Below are positions 43,488 to 60,767 of a stretch of 64,000 bases of DNA, piece after piece (the first letter of the stretch is position 1; each line of letters opens with the position of its first letter). The notes under the pieces are model-generated. The model worked only from the letters and a program-made list of their open reading frames with translations, had not been told where the DNA came from and did no database searches. A program made the position numbers and the translations under genes. Where the stretch lies: NCBI GenBank assembly GCA_026874595.1, contig CM049308.1:23586367-23650366 (forward strand), read 5' to 3'. The DNA is from Sipunculus nudus. Lineage: Eukaryota; Annelida; Sipuncula; Golfingiida; Sipunculidae.

Positions 43488-44093
43488 GTTCGTGAAATCA
43501 TGTGAACACAGTATAATACTTTCACTGCTGTTTGTTGGTTGGTTAGTTAGTTTCATAGTTGGTTCCTTTTTAGGTAAGAAACTTAATTTGCTCCAAGAAG
43601 CTACGTAGTGATTTCGATGAATTTTGTGAAGGATCAGGTTAAATCCGAATTAAATTTTGGAAGTCGCCTGGATCACTCTGTGTTTGTTTATATAATAATT
43701 AAATATTCATTTGTATTAAGGATCTTTGATGCAGCCACAGAGTGTGTTAACAGTTACATAGATTCCATTGGGATTACAATGGCATGTTTCAAGTGTAGCA
43801 TAGACGTGGCTGGGTCATATCTGGCTCTCGGACGATATCAATAGTTCAGTTTATATCTTCAGGTTTTATCTTAAGATATGTTTTAATAAAAACCGGTAAC
43901 CCATGGCTGCTTGGCCTTTTACAGTCAGAGACGCCCAAGGTCTCACAATGCCATTGAACCAAAGTACCAAAAGTAACTATAATAACAAAAATGGTACCTA
44001 CAGGCAATATATATGTATATATGTATAAATATATTTATATATATTATTTAATAATTATCCCTTCGCAAAGAAGTTGCGAAGGGGATATAGTAA

Positions 44094-45255
44094 AGGCGGT
44101 TTCACACCGGATGTGTCCGAACGAATTTTACGTCCGAACGAAAATTTGCTGTACGAACATGTTCTATTTTTTGTCTTTCGCATCGGACAAGAATAGCTTC
44201 TTTTCATCTTCAACACAAAAGAGCTGGAACATTTATATGCAGGCTTTGACATTTGTACGTTACATATTTGATATATAATACTGTACAACGAAGAAATGTT
44301 GTCTCCTTGTCCACTGTTCCAGAATTATGCATTGATAAAAGAAAAATATAAAAAGAGGGATTATTTCTATATCAATTAAATTTATTTGATTTAAACAGAT
44401 ATTTATAACTTTTTTTGCTCAATGATTTTTCCATTAAAAAAAATCTCATATTACTTTTTATGAAATATGTATATTTCCTAAGGGGGGAATAATATTTTAA
44501 TCATAAGGGATTTCAATCGCCGTTTGACCACTTATTTACAATCGAGGACAAAAAAGTCCATTAAACCAGGTTAAGATATAATATTTCATGGTAAATTATA
44601 ATTGTTAATATATTATTTGCAATATATTACAGTTATTCTGTGAAAGGAGGGGGGAGGGATGATTACATTGATCATCCCCCTAGCCCCCCCCCCCCTATAT
44701 TAACGCCCCTGAATATAAGTCAGTCGTATAAGCGATATGTACACTAATAAGCAACGTTATCCAGGACTTGTTCTTTGTTACCCAACCCCTCCCCCGAAAA
44801 TAAATGTTCCGTGATAAATTATGAAAAAAATCATGAAACACTAATTTTTTCATGTGTCATTTTTATTATAACAAAAGTATTATTTTGTGTTAAAAGTTTT
44901 GCATATTAACTGAAGTTTTAAAGCTTTGGCAAGACCATTCTAAATCATATTGGTAAATTTTAAATTCAAATATAATTCAAACTAAAATAGTGATTCAAAC
45001 TTTGATTTAACCTGAAATGCAGGAGTTACAATGGAATCTGTTCTGTTGAAACAACAGGTTGCACATTTATTTTAAAGGCATGTCGAAAAGGTAATCTGGG
45101 AACAGTCAGTGGTATAAATATATTTCACCGGTGAACTCAATTATACATTCATTACACTCAGAGATAAACTTTATTATTAAATATGATTAATTACAAAATT
45201 AATTAGAAAATCAATTAACAGGTTCAAAAAAATATTCGACATTTTTCTGTATAGG

Positions 45256-45310
<55 letters not shown>

Positions 45311-45524
45311 GTGGCAATAAAGCCTATATTGTAGTGCATCCGATTTATTTCTCATGTACCTGTCCAATACGAATTTCGGAGACGACAATTCCTAGGTCGG
45401 AAACCAAAAATATAGTTCGGCTTTGGTGTGAATGAAATTTCGGATGCGACAGGATTTTAGTCGGAACGACAGAAATATTCGTTCGTGTCATATTCGTTCG
45501 GGCGCATCCGGTGTGAAACCGCCT
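44094..45524. mobile_element. PIF/Harbinger-like non-autonomous element
   Basis: The left end AGGCGGTTTCACACCGGATG has its exact reverse complement at the right end, allowing one variable base. Beyond it CCGAACGAAT is also inverted at the two ends. The flanking trinucleotide TAA occurs at 44091-44093 and 45525-45527, the duplication size and sequence typical of PIF/Harbinger. Interior 1.43 kb, no transposase; contains a (CT)n(TA)n run near 45257-45310. Confidence 0.8.
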
Positions 45525-46958
45525 TAACGCCTCCGTTCGTGCGTCCGTCCGACTTTCCGTCCGGAATTGGCTTGTGGATCGATTTCAAGCCAAACCTTTT
45601 GACCAAAACCTTCATCTTGCACATATGGCTCACCCATCCATAGATGAAGAACCCTATCGATTTTGAAGTCATGGGGTCAAAGGTCACGGCCTCAGGGCCC
45701 ACTTCTTGAAAAAGGTTGTGGACCCATTTAAAGCCAAACCGTTAGACCAAAATATTTCATCTTGCACATATAGCTCACCCACGCATCACTGTAAAAAGAA
45801 AAGGTTTTCTAAAGGGTAATAAAAAGGTTTTTATCGTGTCCAAATACAGAAACCCTTAAATGTTTTTTTTGAGAAAACCCATTTCCGAAAAACCTTTAAT
45901 AGGTTTTTTTTAAAACCCTTTAAAGGTTTTATTTAAATTACATCAAACCAAATAACCTTTATAGGGCCATGAAAAAAAAAACCCTTTTGAAAGATTTTGT
46001 TTATAGGACAAACAAGAAATCTATAGGTCATATCACGCAGTACATATTGTCTTCTAGGGTAACTGTGCATAATCTGTAAAATAAAACAAGGAAACAATAA
46101 TTTGCAGAAATCCAGATCTATTTATTTGATATTAAAACTTTACATGAGTATAACATAAACAATTGCCGCTCATGCTAATTCGACTTAAGAACAACATTCT
46201 TAGAAGTCCTACAAGATGCTGTTTTGAAATATTAAAAATCTTGCCAGACTTAACTGAAACACAAACACCTATACAAACAATTACAATATGTTTGCACATA
46301 AGATTAATCAAAAGATAACATAAATGATATATAGAAATCACAACTGAGAATTACGCTTAATAGAAAGCCCATAAAATATATCAGCACTTCATGTCACAGG
46401 ATATCCATTAAAAATTGTCTGAAAATGTAACAAATTCCTCATTACTGGTATTATTTAGGGGGATGGGGGATCGAATTAGACACTGCCTGAATTCAAACTA
46501 TAATAATTTATAAACAGATAGTAACATCAAAACTTTCTTGTATTAAAATGACATCAAAACACATATGTCTTACATGAAATGATGTATAATTTGCAGAATA
46601 GCTCGTTTTGTTATCCACTTTCTTAGCATCTTAAGTTGCAAGCCACTTTGCACATATAATAAGCCTTTTCTGTCAGATAATAAATCAAATAAAATCTTTT
46701 ATTTATCCTTGACCTATATAAGAAAATGATAATAGGTGTAAAATTGTACATTTAAAAACCAGGTTCTTGTTTCTGAATATTAGAATTTAAGATATGTTGT
46801 TCAACATATTTCATACTTTTAATAATGTGAAGACAATGCTTAAATGTAAAAAAACATATAATTCATTATATGTTATTCATGTGAAATAATTTTATGAAAC
46901 CTGGTTACTCTATCTTTTGAAACATAGTTTTTTATAATGGCTTTAAACTTTGACCCAT

Positions 46959-47335
46959 GGGTCACTGTGCTCAGCCGAAGTTGACCTTGAACGTTAAAAT
47001 ATAAAATAAAAACAAATTGAGATAAAATCTGAGAAGAAGTGGTAATATAGGCCATGATTGGTCGAAGAAACTGTTGCAAATAATATTTTTTTATCTTACC
47101 ATGTGTTTCCTAATTTTAAGAATGTATGCAGTTTGTGAATAAAGATCTATATTATTACCATGACCACTGATTGGCTTTTTGATAAGCTGTTGACAGTTCA
47201 GCAGTTTACACATTTGTTCAATTAGATTCTATTTTTTTATAAAACCAATTTGTTCTCTATTTTATCCAATGTTTACAGTTCCCATAACATTAACACTCCA
47301 TAGGTGGAAGGACTTGATGGTTGGTGTAACACCTC
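46959..47335 (+). repeat. internal duplicated segment, copy A
   Basis: It shares GGGTCACTGTGCTC, GTTGCAAATAAT, TTGTTCAAT and AACACCTCTGTAT-like blocks with 52290-52625 in the same order and orientation, with substantial divergence. Both lie inside the 11.1-kb element. Confidence 0.65.
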
Positions 47336-48869
47336 TGTATACATTTTCATTATTTTATAAAAGTTGTGCACTTGCAAATAAAACTATTGTCCAAAGTGCT
47401 CAGGTGCAGGGACAAAGTGATGACAAAGGAGGGGGGGGGGGTGATGAGGGGAGTAACAATTTCCATTGAATATACTTCTTACAGGATATAAAATTTAAGT
47501 CAAATGTGTTTACAGAAAAAAAGGTTATTTATAATAATTAAATATTTAAAAACAGGTAAAAAAAATGGAAAAAGAATCAAATCACTTTAATTCCCATTCC
47601 ATTGAAGCAGGAAAATAATGAACAAATGTTTGCACTAGATCTTCATCTTTTTAATAACATCAATTTTTTTTCAAGTTTATAAATTTTACTATGCATTCAC
47701 CGTATAACATATATATCTGAATATCTAAGTTGATTCATAATTCACAAACTGCATCAAAAGTTATAGCTTATTTGGTCAGGTAACATCACAGTATGTACAC
47801 AGATCTATTTTTATGATATATATTTCTTAAATTTGAAAAACAATAAAAATTTGAAAATAACACGATTTAGAATTCACAATTTTAAGTTGCACCTTCACTT
47901 ATCCATGATTTGGCTCACATATTATCCAAATTATGCCTACTGATGGGTTTAATAATATTTTAATTCGCTAAAATTATTTAAAAGGAGATGCCACATTACC
48001 ACAACACGACATCAACTAGATTACTCTTTGAATAATTATTTCAAGAAAAGTTTTGTACACTGGAATATAAACAGCTTCACAATTAAAGAAATACAGTTAT
48101 TGCAATACACTAGGAGAGGGGGAGGGAGAGGTGCCATAAGAATAAATGTACACCTGTGACAGCAGGGGTGATCGACTAGCGTTGCATCACTGATAAGGTT
48201 ACCCAGGCAGGGCTGATCCACCAGAAGTGGATCTCGACAATGCAAATCATTACAAAAGAGCCTCTGTAGAAAACTTCAATAACTAGTATATTTATTTTTT
48301 AAACTTTACTTTCAAATTTCAGGTTAAATTCTTATGTTTACCTGCTGTGAATATTAAATCAAATGTAAAAAAATGCAATGGTCAATGTTGGCCAAAATTT
48401 AAGGTACTAATTTTATATTTATGCCAATAACATAAAATTTAAAAAAAATCAAGTCTAATTTTAGGTATTCAATAAAATTTTTATTGAATAAAGCCATATA
48501 ACTGGAAAAAATGCTTTAGCTTCAACAATTATCATGTGAAGGGATTCAGCTTTCTTTCCCTATTGTTTTACAAAGTGCATTATGTTTTGGCCCATAAGTT
48601 TCACAAATTACATAATACTGACCTAATTTCTGGCATGTACATAGGAACTATAGATAGAAATAATTATAGTAAATATTAAGGAAAGGAAAGTGATATTAGG
48701 CAGTCCTGAAAGTGTTTAATAATAGGTTTTTAATTGAAAATTCAGGTTTTACCTTAATTTCTCGAAGGAACAAACCTGCAATGACCCAGTGTAGGGTTTG
48801 GTAGGGGGTCTTGGGAACATCTAACAGTATGCTGAATTTTTTATTCGTTGGTCTGATGGTTTCACAACA

Positions 48870-48950
48870 TGCCAGTCTAAAAGGACAGGCTGACGGACAA
48901 CGGACCATTACTGTAGCTCAGATTACTTGTAGTCAGCTGAGCTAAAAATG
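48870..48950 (+). repeat. dispersed motif ending GTCAGCTGAGCTAAA
   Basis: Related ends occur at about 51151, 51494 and 53117, each preceded by a GACGGAC or GGACAACGGA stretch and a TCAGATGACTT-like word, all in one orientation. They look like 3' ends of copies of one repeat family. Confidence 0.5.
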
Positions 48951-49021
48951 TAATATAAATATGGTTACTTAATGCAGTTGAAAATCTTAATTGTAAACTT
49001 TGAAGTAATTTAACATAAATT

Positions 49022-49423
49022 ACAATTTGACTTTTAAAATAAAATATCTCATTGATACACTCAAATGCACAACAAGCTTAAATTTAACAAGAACTAGCAT
49101 TGTATATTAATATTTGGTTCCCAAAGTCTTTGCAAACAAAATGGTCTTAAATCACAATATGAAATGTTAAGTTTTGATGCCCAGGTGTCGACTGTAGTGG
49201 TCACTTTTGTATCCTCTTTGCCAATGGCATACTTTTCTATAAACAAACATGTCTTTTGCAACCTCTGAGCGTAACTGATGCTATACCCAAAGGTTGTGAA
49301 CCATGCTGCCAGGACTAGTGAAAACTACTTTTCTGCCCCTTCAGTAACAAGTTGCTCATCCACTTTCAGCTGGAACTGGCCCTTGCTGTCTTCCTTGATG
49401 GTGGAGAAAGGTGATGTGACATC
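49022..49423 (-). pseudogene. decayed gene in 11.1-kb element: C-terminal exon
   Basis: On the minus strand a good acceptor (TTCCATTACAG) is followed by an open frame reading DVTSPFSTIKEDSKGQFQLK, then VDEQLVTEGAEK, a TAG stop at 49325-49327, and in the same frame FSLVLAAWFTTFGYSISYAQ, RLQKTCLFIEKYAIGKED and TTTVDTWASKLNIS. The frame stays open to about 49022. Coding-like sequence on both sides of the TAG suggests one substitution created it. The pattern resembles the C-terminus of an uncharacterised animal protein family I remember only by its sequence; I cannot name it. Confidence 0.5.
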
Positions 49424-51516
49424 CTGTAATGGAAATACCATAGAAATACTCAAGAGAATTATCAAAATAGCCAATAAGTGATTAAAATGGATGCTCTTAT
49501 AGCTGTAATTGTATGCTGCTTTATAATGTTTATTGTCAGTTACTTTAAATTATAATACAGCTCTAGATTGAACAGAACGAACAAGGGACCTAGGGGTCCC
49601 AGAGCTCAGCTGAAACTGACTCTGAGAACAGTGGCATAATTTCCAAGTGATTGTGTTGACTGTGCACCTTCATGGACTACATGAAAGTTGTGGGAGACTC
49701 ATAATCACATATTTGTGAAAGTTTCAGTATTTCTACTAAGTGATTTGAATATGCATGTAAAAATACACAGAGAACTTATTAAACCCTGTAAAATATAGAA
49801 TACTGGACATGGACCAAAATATAATAATAAACATTAATTCATTAGCTGGTATAAAATGCTGTAAAAAATCAAATGAGCATAAACTAAATTTGACAAGCAT
49901 GTTAAAACAAGCAAAATATGTAATAATTGCATTTGCACTGTGAAATAAATGACACTTTTGGCCTCGAATCTATATCTGGACATGTGTCCTGCATTACTTA
50001 AACTGTATACATTGCAGCTTCAGCAGGTCCACCACCCTATTTGTCACAACAGGTCACAAGCTGCTTTGTTTACCTTTTTGAATGCTCCATCGCGTAAGTT
50101 ACTCATTATATAAATATATCCTTATTCATAGCAGCCTTCAGTGATGAAAACGTCTTCCACAGATAACAGATGACTGTCACTCAGATTTATATTTAACATC
50201 TTAGTCACCCTTGGTGTCTACCTTATTCACTGAAGACATCAAATCTGAGTTTGTTCACAAAACTGGGGACCATGGGTCTTGATGCTCAGGTCAATTTGTC
50301 TATAAAAATATGTTTATGAGCTTTTCAAAATATGGGTGTCAGATATATATATAGATAACTATGATCAGTTTGAAGCCAACCTGTCTACCCATACTTGAGT
50401 TATCATTCATAAACTAATATATCAATTGATGAGTTCTGTGACTTTGAACTTTAACCTAGAGACTCGAAAATCAAGAGAAAACTTCCCCTATTGGCAAGTT
50501 TGAAATGGAAAGTTTGGCACAAAATACATCCACAATCTTTTTAAAAGTGTAGGTCATGTGACCTTGACTTCATGCGTTAGAGATTGGTGAACTATAGGTC
50601 AAATTTGAAATCCATATCCAAACTGGAGTTATCACCAGGAAACAAATTTGACAGACATACAGAAAGATGAACAGATGGACGGACAGGGTGATTAATATAG
50701 GGCATCTCCTTTCTCAAGCGGGGCCCTAATAAATACAAAGGACACAGTTGAAACCACAGTTGCGAATCTGATAGTATCAACATAATTTGGCATTCTGAAA
50801 ATAAAGGAAAAAATGCATAAAAAATACAGGTGGCACCATCAATCTTAGGAACTGAAGAAACATTCCATGACCAATAAGCATGCAAAGAATCATGGAGATC
50901 AATGCATTAGTTATTCAGAAACTGGAGCTTTTGTATCAATTTTTTCATTATTCTGGGGGGTATGTAAGAGTCCCATAGCTCAAAGGATATGGGTAACAGA
51001 GATCTAATTTCAGGTTTCTATGGAGATTTTTCATGGACCTCCCTGGATGTCAAATATAAGATTGTAGGTCCAGCAGTTACGATTTGTGCCTTATTAACGG
51101 ACGGACAAAGAGTGTTTGTTATAGTTCAGATGACTTTTAGTCAGCTGAGCTAAAGAATTGTAAAAATTATGAAAAATACAGGTTGTGCCACCAGTTTTAG
51201 GGAACTGACAAATCTAGTTGTTGTTAACATTCAAGGCAAGATTCATGGCAATCCATGAATACATTATCAATATACTGGAGGTTTTCTACCAAATTTTCTA
51301 TTATTGTGGGGAAGGGGGGGGGGGGGTAACTGCTTGAAGGAAATAGGTTGCAGTGACTTATTTTCATGTTTCCAAGAATATTTTTTATAAACCTACTTGG
51401 ATTTTAAGTAACAAGTTTCCACGATTAGCGGTTACATTTTGTAGCTGGACTGACGACGGACAATGCGCCACTCTTACACCTAAGTTGACTTTCAGTCAGC
51501 TGAGCTAAAACCTGAC

Positions 51517-51705
51517 CTGAATTGTCGGTCTTGTCCTTTTTTGTGGTGTTTCCTCATCTATACTGGTCAAGTTCTTCCTCTTTTGCCCACTCTTTCCTCA
51601 TCTCCCATACTTTGCTTTCGTGTGAGCAGCATCTGGAGTGTCAGTAAGTGGTATTCTTATTGCTTTCATCATGCTGGGAAGGGGTTCCTTCCAGGAATAT
51701 AAATA
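51517..51705 (-). pseudogene. decayed gene in 11.1-kb element: SWKEPL exon
   Basis: The exon of 63 codons starts after TGTGTAG and ends before GTCAGG. It reads YLYSWKEPLPSMMKAIRIPL, TDTPDAAHTKAKYGR, TGA, GKSGQKRKNLTSIDEETPQK and RTRPTIQ, all in one frame. CGA to TGA would explain the stop. It follows the exon at 52019-52091 in phase. The SWK, then basic, then KxKYG pattern fits the same uncharacterised family as the C-terminal exon. Confidence 0.55.
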
Positions 51706-52018
51706 CTACACAGAAATCACTCAAATAAATAATAATACTTGAACCGACTCTTCTAAATCCACCTTTTGCTAACATTTGTTTACCCTGCAGGTAATAATTC
51801 AAAATAAATAACAATTAACAAGTGAAAACAAAAACCATTCTAGTGTACCAACAGAAATATATTTGTGATTGCTTATAGTTATTATTTCCACCAACATCAC
51901 TTACTTCAGGTATCAGACTGTCATTGTCATATTTCTTTTTTAGATATGTTTTAAAATTAAAATAATTCTAAAGTATTGTACAGGCTACAACCCGTTGATC
52001 TTAACAGAAAGTACTTAC

Positions 52019-52091
52019 ATATTTTCCTATATGAGGATACTGATGTAACAGGGCAGTCATTATTCTTTTATATCCTTTCCTGAATGGGCAC
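52019..52091 (-). pseudogene. decayed gene in 11.1-kb element: CPFRKGY exon
   Basis: The 73-nt exon lies between ATCTTTTCAG and GTAAGT on the minus strand. One base plus 24 codons read CPFRKGYKRIMTALLHQYPH and IGKY, without a stop. It ends in phase 0, as the next exon requires. The RIMTALLHQYPHI segment resembles a small helical domain preceding SWK in the same family. Confidence 0.55.
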
Positions 52092-52289
52092 CTGAAAAGA
52101 TTAATATTTGATCATTAAAACATGCAACTCGAACAAAGAGGGAGTGTCTCCTGGTTCCTCTCTCCTTTTCGAGGTGAGCACCTTTATTCTTGACTGTACC
52201 ACTTCTGTTTCCAGTAAAATTCTGAATCTGCCTATATATGATACCACACATATATTACACTGGTAAGTAATTAAAATCAAGGGACCAAA

Positions 52290-52625
52290 GGGTCACTGTG
52301 CTCTGCTGAAGTTGAACTTGAAGGTAAAAATCTAAAATAATATCAAATGGAGATAAAAGGGGAAAAGGCAATATAGTCCATGATGGGTTTGTATTTATGA
52401 GTAAGAAATTGTTGCAAATAATGTTCTGTGACCAAACCATGCATTTCCTAATGTTAAAATTGAAGCATGTGAGCAGGTTGTGAAAATAAGATGTGAATTA
52501 TTACCAAGATCATTAGTTGGCCTTTTGATACACTGTTGAAAGTTCAGTAGTTTTCACTTTTGTTCAATTTGATCTATTTTTTATATATATCATTAATATA
52601 TGGGAGTTACAACATCTCTGTATTA
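52290..52625 (+). repeat. internal duplicated segment, copy B
   Basis: Partner of 46959-47335, about 5.3 kb away in direct orientation, which suggests a segmental duplication or two copies of an older repeat within the large element. Confidence 0.65.
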
Positions 52626-52640
52626 TTATAGTGTACATAC

Positions 52641-52814
52641 CAGGGTTGGGACCAGGTACTTGTATCTGTACCTAGGTATATTCAAAAGTACCTGTACCTG
52701 TACCTATAGGCACTTTACAAAACTGCTGTACCTGTACCTGAACCTGTACCTGACCATTTTTCAATACCTGTTCCTGTACCTAGGTACTGTCACATGTACC
52801 TGGACCCTACCCTG
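52641..52814. mobile_element. 174-bp TIR element rich in GTACCTG
   Basis: The left end CAGGGTTGGGACCAGGTAC is inverted at the right end as GTACCTGGACCCTACCCTG. The interior is a run of TACCTG and CTGTACC words. The 10-base flanks GTGTACATAC and GTGTATATAC differ at one base and look like a target duplication. It is inserted just after duplicated segment B. Confidence 0.7.
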
Positions 52815-53214
52815 GTGTATATACATAGGATTTTCACTTAATTCTACAATGCTTACAGAATAAAAAAGTTCATTTACAATTACTTAATATTTAAAATAGG
52901 AGAGAAAGACTTAGACACACAAAGCTGATAACAAAGAATTTTTTTTTAGTCTCAGTGACCAATTTTGGTAGGAGACTCAGGGGACATCTAACAGTATGCT
53001 GAGTTTTGGATTTGTAGGTCTAACGGTTTCAAAATGTGCAAGTCTAACGGACTGTAAACAGACGGAAAGACAGACAACGGAAATGGACCACGACTATACC
53101 TCAGATGACTAATAATCAGCTGAGCTTAAAATAACAAGTGACTGCATTGCCCTATAAGCTTTAAAACAATTTATTGTGTGTATGAGACTGATATGAGATA
53201 TTGACATTGACATA

Positions 53215-54200
53215 TTATTATGTATGTGTACCCATCTTCACTCGACATCAAATACATGGAGGGGGTGGTGAGGGGGGGGGGGGGGTTTGAGGTGTTGGAA
53301 ATGTCAATGTCTCTCTGTTGAATGTAACCAGCTTCACACAAACGTGTGTACCTGTCTTCACTCGACATCAAATACATGGAGTGTGTGTGTGTGGGGGGGG
53401 GAGGGGGGTGGGGGGTGGGAGTGAGGTGTTGGACAGTACTCTCTGACAAATGTGACTGGCCTCACACACATAGGTATGTGTACCTGTCTTCACTCGACAT
53501 CAAATTCATGGAGTGTGTGTGTGTGTGAGGGGGGGGGGGGGAGTGAGGTGTTGGACAATACTTTCTGTCAAATGTGACTAGCCTCACACACAAAGGTGTG
53601 TGTGCCTGTATTCACTCCACATCAAAAACATGGAGTGGGGGTTCAAGGTGTTGGACAGTACTCTCTGTCAAATGTGACTGGCCTCACACACATAAGTATG
53701 TGTACCTGTCTTCACTCGACATCAAATACATGGAGTGTGTGTGTGGGGGGGGGGGGGAGTGAGGTGTTGGACAGTACTCTCTGACAAATGTGAATGGCCT
53801 CACACACATAGGTATGTGTACCTGTCTTCACTCGACATCAAATACATGGAGTGTGTGTGTGTGTTTGGGGGGGGGGGGGAGTGAGGTGTTGGACAGTACT
53901 CTCTGACAAATGTGACTGGCCTCACACACATAAGTATGTGTACCTGTCTTCACTCGACATCAAATACATGGAGTGTGTGTGTGTGTGTGGGGGGGGGGGA
54001 GTGAGGTGTTGGACAGTACTCTCTGTCAAATGTGACTGGCCTAACACACATAGGTATGTGTACCTGTCTTCACTCGACATCAAATACATGGAGTGTGGGG
54101 GGGGGGGGGGGTGAGGTGTTGGACAGTACTCTCTGTCAAATGTGACTGGCCTCACACACATAGGTATGTGTACCTGTCTTCACTCGACATCAAATACATG

Positions 54201-54234
<34 letters not shown>

Positions 54235-55000
54235 GTGAGGTGTTGGACAGTACTCTCTGACAAATGTGACTGGCCTCACACACATAGGTATGTGTACCTG
54301 TCTTCACTCGACATCAAATACATGGAGTGTGTGTGTTGGGGGGGGGGGGGGGGTGAGATGTTGGACAGTACTCTATGAAAAATGGAGGGGGATGGTCAGG
54401 GGAGGGGGGTTTGAGGTGTTGGACAATACTTTCTGTCAAATGTGACTAGCCTCACACACAAAGGTGTGTGTGCCTGTATTCACTCCACATCAAAAACATG
54501 GAGTGGGGGTTCAAGGTGTTGGACAGTACTCTCTGTCAAATGTGACTGGCCTCACACACATAGGTGTGTTTACCTGTCTTCACTCGACATCAAATACATG
54601 GATAGTGTGTGTGTGTGTGGGGGGGGGGGGGGAGTGAGGTGTTGGACAGTACTCTCTATCAAATGGAGGGGGATGGTGAGGGGAGGGGGGTTTGAGGTGT
54701 TGGACAGTACTTTCTGTCAAATGTGACTGGCCTCACACACATAGGTGTGTGTACCTGTCTTCACTCGACATCAAATACATGGATAGTGTGTGTGGGTGTG
54801 TGTGGGGGGGGGGGGGGGAGTGAGGTGTTGGACAGTACTCTCTATCAAATGGACGGGGATGGTGAGGGGAGGGGGGTTTGAGGTGTTGGACAGTACTTTC
54901 TGTCAAATGTGACTGGCCTCACACACATAGGTGTGTGTACCTGTCTTCACTCGACATCAAATACATGGAGTGGTTGAGGTGAGGGGGGGGGGGGGGGGAG
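53215..55000. repeat. minisatellite, about 14 units of ~110-130 bp with G runs
   Basis: Units are anchored by CTTCACTCGACATCAAATAC at roughly 53235, 53357, 53488, 53718, 53827, 53947, 54067, 54177, 54301, 54577, 54757 and 54944, plus two CTCCAC variants near 53610 and 54478. Most units continue ATGGAG, (GT)n, a run of 8-17 G, GTGAGGTGTTGGACAGTAC and GGCCTCACACACATAGG. All short ORFs in it are artefacts of the repeat. Confidence 0.9.
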
Positions 55001-56249
55001 GTTGAAGTGTTGGACAGTGCTTTCTGCTTATGTGACTTTCTTCACACGGGTAGGTGTATATACTATCTTTTCCCACTAATAAATTAGTACTTTGAGGATG
55101 GGGAGATAGTACTCTCTGTCAGATATTACTTTATTAGTTCAAACATGTATGCATGTACCAGTACTTGGAAGAAGAGTGATGGGTTGGACATTCAATATTA
55201 CTCTCTCACAGATAGATACATTTATACATAAAGAAGGTTGCTATACCAAACTCAAAACAAGGCCCATAGATGTGTATCAAATGGAATTATTTTTTTATTA
55301 TAATGATACCTTAAAAGTGCTCAGTATAGTACTGTACATATTCTGTGATAGATAATTGAAATTTAATTGAAGAACTTACAAACTGTTGAATTAGCAGGAG
55401 GCACATAACAGTTGTAATTTTCAAATTCAACAAGTTGTCACAGAAAAAATGCATGGATGTTCTGTTTTATTTTACTTTTTATGCTGGAAGTTGATCATTG
55501 GTCCAAGTATGTGAAAATATTAATAAAGGTTGCTGTCTGGCCTTTATAAATTATATAAACTGTTGTAAGCTTTTAATCATATCATATATGTACAGAGGCT
55601 ACATCATAATGGTATTGTATATATGCATGGAAGAGGTAGGTAAGAAATCACCATTGCAAACTAATTTTTATATTGAGGCATTATGAAACACACTGCTGAC
55701 AAGGCTCTAAAATAGATACTCCTTTTCAAAATCAGCTGGGTATAATTTAAAAACAAAGTGAGTTGACAATGTAAATTCTAATTTAAAAAAAAATAATTTT
55801 GAGTTTACCAGCACATGCAATGGAATATATGTATAAAAGTAATTTTTGTATTTTTTTTGTAAATCTTAAAGGTTAAATCATTTTTTTTAATATGTTGTCC
55901 TATAGCACCACTTAATATAATCCAATAGAACATAAAATAATTTATGGAAGACATGAACATTCATTAATGTTACTGTTCCTATGTAAGGACTCAGCATTTT
56001 TTTTATTCTTTTGTTAACTGTATTCTGTAACTATATAAATATTAAATATATGTGGCCTGGATGACATCCCAGGCATCTGATTTGGACTGAACAATATTGT
56101 CAATAATAATAATACAACAAAAAATATAATCCGTACATAGCGAAAATGCCCAGTTATGGAATGAGTAAATAAACATGCATGTGTCTGCTGGTAATAACTT
56201 GTACCCAGTATACGTATAACTTGGACACAACACGTTTTGGGATGCAAAT

Positions 56250-56850
56250 GTCGTTTGTTTACATGCCGGGGACGGGGGGGGGGGGGGGGCGGTAGCGCTG
56301 TTAAAGACCGGCTGAGTAATGCTTTTCAAAGTCGTGTTGCTCCTTGATTCTAATGCAATGCGGATTTTTACATCCGGCAGACCATATAGGAATCGTCTTT
56401 TGTAGGTGACATCCGTTAAAAAGCCTTTTCATCGCTAAAACATACCAAGCCACCTGCTTTTGTCATACCGGGCCGCCATCTTGAAAATCCCACTGCACTA
56501 GACGCCGCCATGCGCCTAACATTCCACGGCGTAAAACTAAATGTAGATGTGCCAAGTTGTTTCACCTGTTTACAAGCAATTGCCATGATCATCATGATAC
56601 AAAACTGACTTACCTGAAAGCTTGAATTTCTGAGAGTGACGGATTCTCTGCATAAAAATAGTAATTTGCTGTTGGTCTTTCTGACACCTCATGTCACTGG
56701 TGAAGCCGCCAAGAAGATACACGTCACGCGTGACGTGTTCAGTCAAACGCCGGCAGTGCACCCTCGCGTTAATATAACGAATTAATGACACACTCGCGGG
56801 AAAGGGGTTTTTACGGGAAATACATAAAACAAAACCCATTTACAAGAGGC
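56250..56850 (-). promoter_or_regulatory. CpG-bearing promoter-like block at the right end of the 11.1-kb element
   Basis: This block is richer in CG dinucleotides than the rest of the element. It contains a perfect 20-base palindrome at 56719-56738 (ACACGTCACG and its complement), which holds two CRE-like ACGTCA/TGACGT words. On the minus strand CAAGATGGCGGCC at about 56472-56484 matches the YY1-type ATGGCGGC context. Its place, just inside the terminus and upstream of the minus-strand exons, suits a promoter for them. Confidence 0.4.
56446..56479 (-). CDS. possible first coding exon of the element's minus-strand gene
   Basis: ATG in a strong context (CAAGATGGCGGCC) opens 11 codons, MAARYDKSRWL, followed by G and a donor GTATGT. 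No exon joining it to 52091 was found, so the link is inference. Confidence 0.25.
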
Positions 56851-58430
56851 TACGGGTGAGGGAAGAAAGAACAACCCGTTTATCTAGAAACAACCGTTTT
56901 ATAAAACCCTTTCTTCTTACAGTGATGGATGAAGATACTTTTCGATTTTGTGGTCATAGGATCAAAGGTCACGGCCACAGGGCCCACCTCTTGAAAAAGC
57001 TTGTGGACCCATTTAAAGCCAAACCATTTGACCAAAACCTTTCATCTTACATATCAGGTCATGGGGTCAAAGATCACGGCCACAAGGTCCACTTCTCGAA
57101 AAAGCTTGTGGTACCCGTTTAGAGCCAAACCGTTTGACCAAAACCTATTATCTTGCAAATATGGCACACCCACCCATGGATGAAGACATCTATCGATTTT
57201 GAGGTCACGGGGTTAAAGGTCACGGCCACAGGGCCCACTTCTTGAAAAAACTTGTGGACCCATTTAAAGCCAAACCGTTTGACCAAAACCTTTCATCTTA
57301 CTCATATGGCTCACACATCCATGGACGGAGAACCCTATTAATTTTCAGGTCATGGGTTCAGAGGTCACTTCCACAAAGCCCACTTCTTAAAAAAAGCTTG
57401 TGGACCCATTTAAAGCCAAACCTTTTGACCAAAACCTTTTATCTTGCAGATATGGCTCACCCACCCATGGATGAAGACATCTATCGATTTTGAGGTCACG
57501 GGGTCAAAGGTCACGGCCACAGGGCCCACTTCTTGAAAAAGCTTGTGGACCCATTTAAAGCCAAACCGTTTGACCAAAACCTTTCATCTTACTCATATGG
57601 CTCACACATCCATGGACGAAGAATCCTATTAATTTTCAGGTCATGGGTTCAGAGGACACTTCCACAAAGCCCACTTCTTAAAAAAAAAGCTTGTGGACCC
57701 ATTTAAAGCCAAACCGTTTGACCGAAACCTTTCATCTTGCAAATATAGCTCATCCACCCATTGATGAAGAACAATATCGATTCTGAGGTCACCGGGTCAA
57801 AGGCATGGCCACAGGGCCCACTTCTTGAAAAGTTTGTGGACCTATTTTAGGCCAAACCATTTGACCAACAGATTTCATCTTTAACATGGCTCACCCATCT
57901 ATTGATGAAGAACCCTATTGATTTTCATGTCATGGGGTCAAAGGTCACGGCCACATGGTCTACTTCTTGAAAAAGCTTGTGGACCCATTTAAAGCCAACC
58001 GTTTGACTAAAACCTTTCATCTTGCTCATATGACTCACCCACCCATGGATGAAAAACCTTGAGGTCACAGGAGCAAAGGTCAAGGCCAGAGAGCGCCCTC
58101 CTCATTCTCACACTGGTAATACACCCGTTTAATCATGCCCTCGCGGGGATGCTCCGCTTTGCGGTGCCCTTGTTATACTTTATATCAACGTTATAATTTT
58201 AATTTATCTTTGCATAACGAGGGCCAGTGCATGGGGGCCATAGCCTGTTTTATTAAATTAGTTTATATATAGTTATGTATTATATATACATTCAAATAGT
58301 AACGGCAGGTAAGAGTTTGATGTCTAATAGTGTTATCAATAGCGTCAACGAAAGTGATCAGTATACAAGCAGTGTCAGACCATAATTAGTAAAAGATGCT
58401 GTCATTTCTATTTTTTTCTTGTCGCTGCAG

Positions 58431-58568
58431 GCAGAGTTCGCCGGACTGTTCGGTTCCACGGCGCCAAGTGAACGCTTGTATTTCTCCACAGAGGTCAACA
58501 TCATCCCTGATACTCTACCCTTCCCAAGATGCAGCGGATGGGTAGACTGCCAGGGAACGCTGCTTTAA
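58431..58568 (+). CDS. copy 1 exon 15: C-terminus, stop and poly(A) signals
   Basis: It encodes AEFAGLFGSTAPSERLYF, then STEVNIIPDTLPFPRCSGW and VDCQGTLL, ending at TAA (58566-58568). The acceptor GTCGCTGCAG is strong. AATAAA follows at 58572 and again at 58581. Phase 0 matches exon 14 despite the 14.9-kb intron. Confidence 0.85.
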   Translation, partial: AEFAGLFGSTAPSERLYFSTEVNIIPDTLPFPRCSGWVDCQGTLL

Positions 58569-60767
58569 TTAAATAAAGTAAATAAAAGCATCCATTTATT
58601 ATATCTGAATATTACCATTTCCTTTTGGGGTTTCGAGCTTGTTCTTTAACTCCTCATACTCTATTTGTTTCATTATCACTGTAGTTCAAACATCTTTATT
58701 AATGTAAAGTGTATATTTATATATTTGTGTATGTGTGTGTATGATTGGAAATTTATGTTAGTAATAGAATCAATTAATTCTAGCTCCTCGGCGTGATGAC
58801 CAAGCAGTATTGATAAATTACAAACCCACGACCCACAGATGTTGCAGACATCAGGATTAAAAAAAAAATGACAGAAAATAAGAGTACCGTAGTCCATAAC
58901 CGAACAAATGATGGCGGTAACCTCCATGAGAAACTAAAAAGAAATTTTTTTCTTGGACTATGTGACAAAATATTTTGCCCAGTGTTTTTTTTGCAGTCTC
59001 CAGCTTAAGGAAAAGATGACTTATCTTTAAAAAATAAAATGAAAAAATTGCTTGTTTAATGGCTTCAAAGGTTTGCGTTTGTCGACCTCGCGTTCTAAAT
59101 GTAGAGGGAAATCAGACGATACTAAAAATGTAGTCTTATCAGACTTTACGCCCAATGTCTTCCACCGAGTTGAGTTCAACTTGATCCGTCAGGTGAGAAG
59201 AAACAGCTGTGTTCTATATAAACCAATACTATATGCGTGGTGCGTTTTTACTGTTTATCAAAGGACGAAATAACACTATATCTTTGAACCCTATAAATAT
59301 CACAGTCCCGTGTGTCTCTGATGAAACCCCTGGATTCAGCGTCGGGCATCTCATTAGGGTTATATATACTCTATGCTGACGCGGTACAATGTCCAAATAA
59401 ACTTTTCACAGTTATAGTCATTTTCTGCACAGGGCAATGTTTACCCTGCTTGCGGCAAGAATGACAAGTCACGTGCTCACAAACTTCCATTTCAAACAAA
59501 TTATAAACTAAACATTAAATATTTATCTAAGCTCGCATGGTATGAAGCAGTGAATAAGAAACTACAGTCCGTTCAATACCCAATGAACGTGGGTTTTTCC
59601 AGTGGAATATTTATTTTTTTTTTGGAAAATCCTTGCTGCAAGGAAAACCTGAGCCGCAGAAATAATTTATAACAAGGTTTAAGGAATAACCCTGCATGAA
59701 AAAAAAAAAAAAGAAATCAATCTACACTAAAAGTTACAGCCCCAAATATGGCAGTCGATGTCACTGGTTACATGCAAGAACAGCCAAGTTGACATGTAGC
59801 TGCTGTTTGGATAATGTCATGTAAACACTCCAAAAATCTACGATCAGCTGACACAAAGATGGCTACTCATGCAAGGACACATCTGATCTAATAATTAACA
59901 TAAAGGAAAAGTTAAAGTGGTTAAATATAAACATTTTAAAGGAAATTCTTGATTGTCATGTCCGGTGCAAATCTGTGACCTATAATATATATTGCGCCCA
60001 AAGGTCAGTTCTTGAAAATCGGCCATATTCAAGATCTAGAGCAAACACAGGCAGAAAGAAGTATAAGAACAAATTTGTAATCGATGGTTTGCCACTCGGG
60101 GGGGGGGGGGGGGGGCAATGGACGTGCACCCATACTTTTTAACCAAAATATGGATAAAAATATATACTCAAAAATCCCTATAACTGCTAGGGAGAGACTG
60201 AACAAGAGAATATGAGTGTTACAGTTCGGGGTAAATATAAACACAGTAACTGTTAAAACAGGAATAAATTTAACATTCATTCCTTTAGGTCTGCAGATGT
60301 GTGTCATGCTGATGTTCACGGTGTATAGGTGACAATATACGTGTATATAATAAGTTGTTAAGTGAAAATAATTAATTAATGAATTAATTTCATTTTTGTA
60401 TTTAAGAAAATTTGAGGTAAGAGAGTTCGTGAATAAAAAGTCTGGCCTGATTCCTCCCGATTTTCCCAAGTTGAAATCAGAGAAATAGTGTCATTTTCGA
60501 TTAAATTTATTCCCGACTTGAATTAATATTATGGCTGAGGTAAGGGTTCTAATGAGTTTTAGCTCTGTCCCTCCAGTCCGCCTGATGTAGTAATGCAACC
60601 AATAACATATTCAAGCAAAGCTACGTTTAAACGCGGTATGTGTTGTGAATTTCGCCATCTGGTAAATGTTTTATGACGATCAGATAGTGTCTCCCAAACC
60701 CCCAGTCGGAGGGCAGACCTGAACAAATTTGCATCGTTTATTTAGGGGATCAATTAATTAAATTACC
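58569..60767. other. spacer between the two hydrolase copies
   Basis: About 2.2 kb without a supported exon. A fragment at about 58790-58930 ends ATGGCGGTAACCTCCATG, like the SINE tail, and may be a degraded copy. A G homopolymer lies at 60099-60115. No TATA box is obvious before the start at 60768. Confidence 0.45.

Follow-up and report, generated by a model that had tools for sequence, protein, structure and literature searches.

Three exons on the minus strand of a 64,000-nucleotide stretch of the Sipunculus nudus genome (the window, C3:23586367-23650366) are very probably the remains of the second gene (open reading frame 2, ORF2) of a CACTA-type DNA transposon, encoding a protein that we presume to be SAMD3-like and to belong to a family spread through fish and invertebrates. 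The remnant lies on the minus strand of a non-autonomous, CACTA-like element of 11138 bp (45787..56924), whose exact boundaries are common to other copies in the genome (1.43 Gb searched in 153 contigs, numbered C1, C2 and so on). CACTA transposons as such are known; the variation here would be one from an animal whose second gene is SAMD3-like. The preliminary description of this DNA had ventured a tie between the gene family and a transposable element, and this is supported by CACTGT-type ends near a good part of the genomic relatives and a CACTA transposase near some.

The three minus-strand exons proposed at the outset are borne out with their splice signals (exon sequence in capitals), as are the in-phase junction of exons 1 and 2 and the two internal stops with coding-like continuation. 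Exon 1 (52091-52019, CPFRKGYKRIMTALLHQYPHIGKY) lies between tttcag/GTGCCC and AAATAT/gtaagt, while exon 2 (51705-51517, 189 nucleotides), with the SWK motif, KAKYGR and a basic linker, lies between tgtgtag/TATTTA and ATTCAG/gtcagg. The last exon (exon 3, 49423-49094), reading from QFQLKVDE to a helical C-terminus, runs from attacag/GATGTC to TGC and a stop. An in-frame TGA interrupts exon 2 after KAKYGR (51600-51598) and an in-frame TAG interrupts the last exon after TEGAEK (49327-49325); beyond both, the same frame still looks coding. Matches in the host genome exceed chance (76 for exons 1 and 2, 108 for exon 3, E up to 10). Pfam returns no match for exons 1 and 2 and DUF7493 alone for exon 3 (E 0.14, below cut-off), a PDB sequence search returns 0 matches for exon 3, and Rfam 0 at gathering threshold over 44000-60000.

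The element carrying these exons ends in CACTGTAA/TTACAGTG, and in the window copy the CACTGTAA terminus is present on either side, in agreement with the CACT(A/G) termini by which CACTA/EnSpm elements are recognized. The terminus at the gene's 3' side (CACTGTAAAAAGAAAAGG..., 45787..45813, plus strand) is an inverted match to that at its 5' side (CACTGTAAGAAGAAAGGG..., 56898..56924, minus strand), 90% identical over 30 bp with 3 flanking bases included. In six other copies, with 19.8 kb read at each, the start at 45787 is exact in all six and the end at 56924 in five, the match to the window ending at 56783 in the sixth (C16:17.6 Mb). A seventh copy (C17:45.7 Mb, 9.9 kb read) has the same end as the window copy, and one of the six, at C5:85.9 Mb, begins with CACTGCAA. 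The insertion is flanked by a 2-bp target site duplication (AT at 45785..45786 and at 56925..56926), and the 2-bp flanks are identical in all six copies with both ends read, the window included (TA in four, AT and CA in one each), a length inside the 2-5 bp of the wider CMCT group (PMC12730594, in part).

The motif AARGGTTT/AAACCYTT occurs seven times in the 300 bp at the gene's 3' side (45787-46086), against a shuffle mean of 0.37 (0 of 500 shuffles reach seven) and a mean of 0.02 and maximum of 1 in 150 controls of 300 bp taken from the window. In three subfamilies the end on the gene's 3' side has 7, 10 and 7 motifs per 300 bp (shuffle means 0.37, 0.56 and 0.25), and the other end of the window element holds a single motif (24 of 500 shuffles reach one). 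Such subterminal repeats are typical of CACTA/EnSpm elements and are present in the maize element. No transposase was found among eight longer open reading frames (ORFs) in or adjoining the element, and tblastn with the transposase of a relative (copy E, C3:51.92 Mb) detects nothing within it; the window copy is therefore a non-autonomous derivative. Toward the gene's 5' side it contains a minisatellite with a unit of about 100-122 bp (53219..55063), which is not alike in all copies and explains part of their spread in length (11.1-12.5 kb in six copies with both ends read). The insertion is held by a host tandem repeat with a unit of about 145 bp (45572-45786 and 56925..58058), whose units show the pre-insertion site.

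Copies of this element form a recent family in which the lesions of the gene are shared. Exon 2 recurs at no fewer than 34 places at an identity of 77% or more, the window included, and on C1-C15 (the five copies on C16 and C17 being set apart) the pattern lists described below place termini within 25 kb on both sides of 22 of 29 copies, at the 3' side of 25 and at the 5' side of 25. Substitutions outside the minisatellite amount to 1.6-2.0% between the window copy and seven recent copies; for two older relatives (L011 and L015) the figure is 10-12%. The TGA of exon 2 is present in all nine recent copies read, the window included, and absent from all four more distant relatives (L010, L011, L014 and L015). 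The gene was thus already dead in the founder of the window family, before it spread. A motif search recovered the first half of the last exon at nine of 12 loci (L029-L040), each with the stop after GAEK; among the remaining three, the copies on C16 and at C5:85.9 Mb show that stop and the one at C4:59.0 Mb has lost the stretch. The two halves of the last exon lie in different frames in other copies and in one frame in the window. Decay by point mutation, as first proposed, is hence right as to the kind of damage and wrong as to its place, the stops not being private to the window copy. Window-type copies would presumably have been moved in trans by the transposase of relatives.

The gene is also found outside this family, in diverged loci that exon 3 matches at 30-39% identity (E 3e-8 to 1e-6), some with open frames. 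Those read fall into two subfamilies, one comprising L041, L042 and L044 (main pieces 95.7-99.0% identical) and the other L043 and L045 (97.3 and 93.3%), and in both the gene is followed downstream by CACTGTTA termini resembling the left end of the window element. The second subfamily includes two central exons without any match in the window, and in L045 a SAM-like exon lies upstream of the gene; nothing in the window family matches the SAM domain. The description of a multi-exon gene accordingly holds for the three exons seen and falls short of the relatives, which hold two central exons and a SAM-like exon absent from the window copy. By position and pattern, window exon 1 is the counterpart of YPSPTMINQMYRELFRHYPFLGNL in copy E, a direct tblastn link being absent. 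Pfam matches to the relatives' exons are all sub-threshold (SAM_1 in copy E, E 0.18, profile positions 26-64 of 64; UBA2_C 0.014; GvpG 0.31; AAA_assoc_C 4.8), and the PDB search gave 0 matches for the SAM-like exon. Between subfamilies, the last exon diverges most at third codon positions, with differences at positions 1/2/3 of 0.51/0.35/0.69 (83 codons), 0.46/0.26/0.61 (46 codons) and 0.31/0.31/0.55 (51 codons). Exon 2 is less clear, with a marked third-position excess in three of six pairs and none between the window and L010. Together with the neutral-looking change between L043 and L045, the pattern fits a protein that selection maintains in active lineages while inserted copies decay freely.

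A few matches were set aside. A weak one (E 3.5) on C104 is taken as unrelated. This contig of 56.7 kb, of which L009 (C104:16000-25900) is a part, is packed with long phage-like ORFs that overlap one another and looks like assembly contamination. Viral contigs gave three matches, each 18 residues long, and none when the alignment was the query.

The association of gene and terminus extends beyond the loci that were read. Allowing at most one mismatch, the terminus pattern CACTGTWARAARWAARGGTTTY has 234 matches in the genome compared with five for the reversed pattern, and a looser pattern 147 compared with five; the first 100 of each were used, giving 132 listed termini when pooled. Among last-exon matches outside the window family on C1-C11, at least 14 of 41 have a listed CACTGT terminus 733-1608 bp downstream and facing the gene, whereas listed termini that face wrongly downstream, or lie anywhere upstream within 3 kb, number 0 of 41 (0.007 expected per cell). 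The 41 leave aside matches on C12-C17, second pieces of one exon, C8:72.59 Mb (facing terminus at 876 bp) and C2:37.70 Mb (none among the termini listed). With the first pattern list only, a limit of 8 kb and C1-C15, 13 of 51 matches have a facing terminus. The preliminary description had suggested looking for CACTGTAA-like ends around genomic relatives; these 14 have them, and some relatives carry a CACTA transposase as well.

Two further sets of loci depart from this arrangement. Six pairs of CACTGT termini 6-11 kb apart (C3:10932110-10938697, C4:37576477-37583060, C4:52688005-52694063, C9:69564835-69571132, C9:20419262-20425738 and C2:31118818-31129800), each with one end reading CACTGTTAGAAAAAAGGGTTTT, enclose no SAMD3-like match and are perhaps another non-autonomous subfamily. 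At C11:66491568-66504227 two SAMD3-like exon matches without stops lie 12 kb apart; the lists place neither a terminus nor a transposase close to them, and they may represent a host copy.

The gene can further be placed relative to a transposase. A scan of the genome with the Transposase_21 profile (PF02992) gives 19 rows at E up to 1, among them a 541-amino acid frame in copy E (E 0.007, under cut-off), which shares its strand with exon 1 and ends 1.9 kb upstream of it. Its translation contains a CxxC (KICRMC) and an HxxxH (HHYLLH), motifs given for the CACTA-related group in the available part of PMC12730594. When this frame is compared with the genome (85 rows, from the 80 of 194 candidates that were scored, a scope that holds for all transposase counts below), its best relatives are three stop-free frames of 837-838 amino acids at 49% identity. 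Each belongs to an element of about 21 kb whose termini were placed by pattern, the second by the looser pattern: C4:69005531-69026472 (20942 bp, transposase at C4:69.01 Mb), C5:5466550-5487499 (20950 bp, transposase at C5:5.48 Mb) and C2:79392166-79413156 (20991 bp, transposase at C2:79.41 Mb). Together with C2:66.85 Mb these have stop-free SAMD3-like exons that score alike or nearly so and a common terminus, CACTGTAAAAAGTAAAGG.

A SAMD3-like exon lies at most 15 kb from a transposase match in nine of the 85 rows (seven loci, about five lineages), and in all nine it is downstream on the same strand, compared with 0 in the three other cells (0.04 expected); the nearest such exon is 1.9-6.4 kb from the transposase match. 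A SAM-like exon stands between transposase and gene in copy E, and weaker matches occupy the same position on C14 (E 0.01) and, at E 0.64, on both C4 and C2; these weak matches gain support from that position. For C5 the listing contains none. Copy E and the three 21-kb elements thus have a fixed order on one strand of transposase, SAMD3-like exons and CACTGT terminus, with the SAM-like exon between in three of the four. On the minus strand at C12:5799036-5830722 the SAM-like exon is repeated, partly in tandem, with transposase matches nearby (C12:5773239 and C12:5842402), in what looks like a broken, locally duplicated element.

Several observations weigh against assigning the gene to the transposon. 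No facing terminus is listed for 27 of the 41 last-exon matches, some of them weak (E up to 0.09), and 76 of the 85 transposase rows have no SAMD3-like exon within 15 kb. Some of the 27 may have other end sequences, and the two counts together suggest that the family may include host genes and that the gene may be missing from certain CACTA lineages. The 14 terminus-bearing matches represent about six subfamilies and are hence not 14 independent events. Scanned alone, the copy E frame reaches E 3.8e-5 and 23.4 bits, below the Pfam cut-off of 28.6. Its transposase and SAM-like exon fall outside the stretch common with its sister L043, which starts 69 bp before exon 1, so that copy E alone would not settle the link. 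The 21-kb elements are known by match coordinates and scores only. For C2:66.85 Mb there is neither a transposase row nor a second terminus among those listed, and the elements of L041, L042 and L044 (termini 10.2-17.2 kb apart) have no transposase row. L043 and L045 differ in a neutral-looking manner (three synonymous codon differences over 185 sites, 11 non-synonymous ones over 700), and AlphaFold models the last exon poorly (mean pLDDT 59).

Among other accounts, two are compatible with a transposon gene. A host SAMD3-type gene may have been captured early and kept as an accessory, host SAMD3 being its source, an account of origin whose chances we put somewhat below even. The data fix the present association and not its direction, and some relatives, such as C11:66.49-66.50 Mb, lie apart from any listed terminus or transposase; groups of equally scoring copies recur, a pattern that suits a transposon gene better than a host gene without being decisive. 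It is also possible, though less likely than not, that transposase, SAM-like and SAMD3-like exons form one transcription unit spliced to alternative or fused products, as the same strand and constant order would allow and as maize Spm exemplifies, its tnpA and tnpD arising by alternative splicing of one unit (PMC1636069, in part). The 1.9-6.4 kb between transposase match and nearest SAMD3-like exon would leave room for a promoter.

The remaining two conflict with a transposon gene. Plant Pack-type elements capture fragments of host genes, the fragment being confined to non-autonomous copies of one family, and a one-off capture of this kind, spread without a role in transposition, would agree with the broken gene in the window-family copies read. 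Here, however, the gene occurs in at least three diverged CACTGT subfamilies, always at one position and in one orientation, lies downstream of a stop-free transposase frame in three elements and shows codon-position bias between subfamilies, leaving such a capture very improbable. Least probable of all is that segmental duplication multiplied an ordinary host gene family whose proximity to termini is fortuitous. The many and diverse relatives and the 27 of 41 matches lacking a listed terminus might recall such a family; it is opposed by 14 facing termini against 0 per control cell and by exact ends with 2-bp duplications in unrelated flanks.

If the exons belong to a transposon gene, the full element would consist of a 5' CACTGT terminus, a CACTA transposase, a SAM-like exon, SAMD3-like exons (five known) and a 3' CACTGT terminus with AAACC(C/T)TT repeats. 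The window copy would be a derivative of it with no transposase, the two central exons unmatched, stops in those remaining and a minisatellite inside. By analogy, the SAMD3-like protein might bind the subterminal AAACC(C/T)TT repeats through its basic KYGR..RKRK stretch, and the SAM-like domain might oligomerise, linking the repeats and bringing the ends to the transposase. In such a role the second protein would work like TnpA, the helper of maize En/Spm, a parallel we consider nearly as likely to be right as wrong. More tentatively, and at somewhat less than even odds, we propose that the SAMD3-like family of animals serves an animal CACTA lineage as its accessory gene, the functional counterpart of plant TnpA, with vertebrate SAMD3 its domesticated descendant.

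An animal gene family without known function would thereby gain a role to test, that of a transposon helper protein, and a CACTA transposon gene would be the likely source of the family's many copies in the genome. Animal CACTA elements would prove able to have the two-gene layout of plant ones, their second protein being of another type. Were vertebrate SAMD3 to descend from a transposon gene, a human gene would gain an origin and testable biochemistry (short-repeat binding and oligomerisation). Annotation would also benefit, such copies being easily mistaken for host genes.

Human SAMD3, represented by an unverified sequence from outside any database, shows colinear similarity to the product of the second gene in the YP..L/W/KYG and FP regions and at the C-terminus (58.5 bits, with 22% identity in 310 columns; maximum of 200 shuffles 29.3); the SAM piece is in the right order at 28.5 bits, not above the shuffle maximum. 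On the strength of this alignment vertebrate SAMD3 may be a domesticated copy, which we offer as a lead only; to our knowledge it is not known to be mobile. The literature titles and abstracts that were listed, with Repbase (where an entry with this second protein may exist) outside the search, contain nothing linking SAMD3 to transposons or transposase or SAM domains to CACTA/EnSpm, and nothing on CACTA with gene capture and molluscs. The sole sterile alpha motif record among the CACTA/EnSpm literature listed, zebrafish Asz1, is unrelated to judge by its entry.

Comparison with known systems, drawn from parts of the papers cited, shows both likenesses and differences. SmTRC1, of the animal TRC group in the CACTA superfamily, likewise has Transposase_21, 2-bp direct repeats (in seven of 14 copies) and an animal host; it differs in its CCC termini and clone of about 4.7 kb, and the available part of the report mentions no SAMD3-like gene (PMC1636069). 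The fungal EnSpm/ESTA group with a TET/JBP gene is also CACTA-related, with CA..TG ends, 2-5-bp duplications and an extra non-transposase gene, in that case a dioxygenase unrelated by name (PMC12730594). In full-length CACTA elements termini enclose a transposase and an ORF2 that aids excision and transposition in specific families (PMC4158355), and maize Spm requires both its tnpA and tnpD products (PMC1636069); the gene described here occupies the place of ORF2. The elements described here share with En/Spm (tnpD and tnpA) the CACT termini and the pairing of transposase and second protein (PMC4158355, PMC1636069), and differ in having CACTG rather than CACTA ends, a 2-bp rather than a 3-bp duplication and a second protein that is SAMD3-like.

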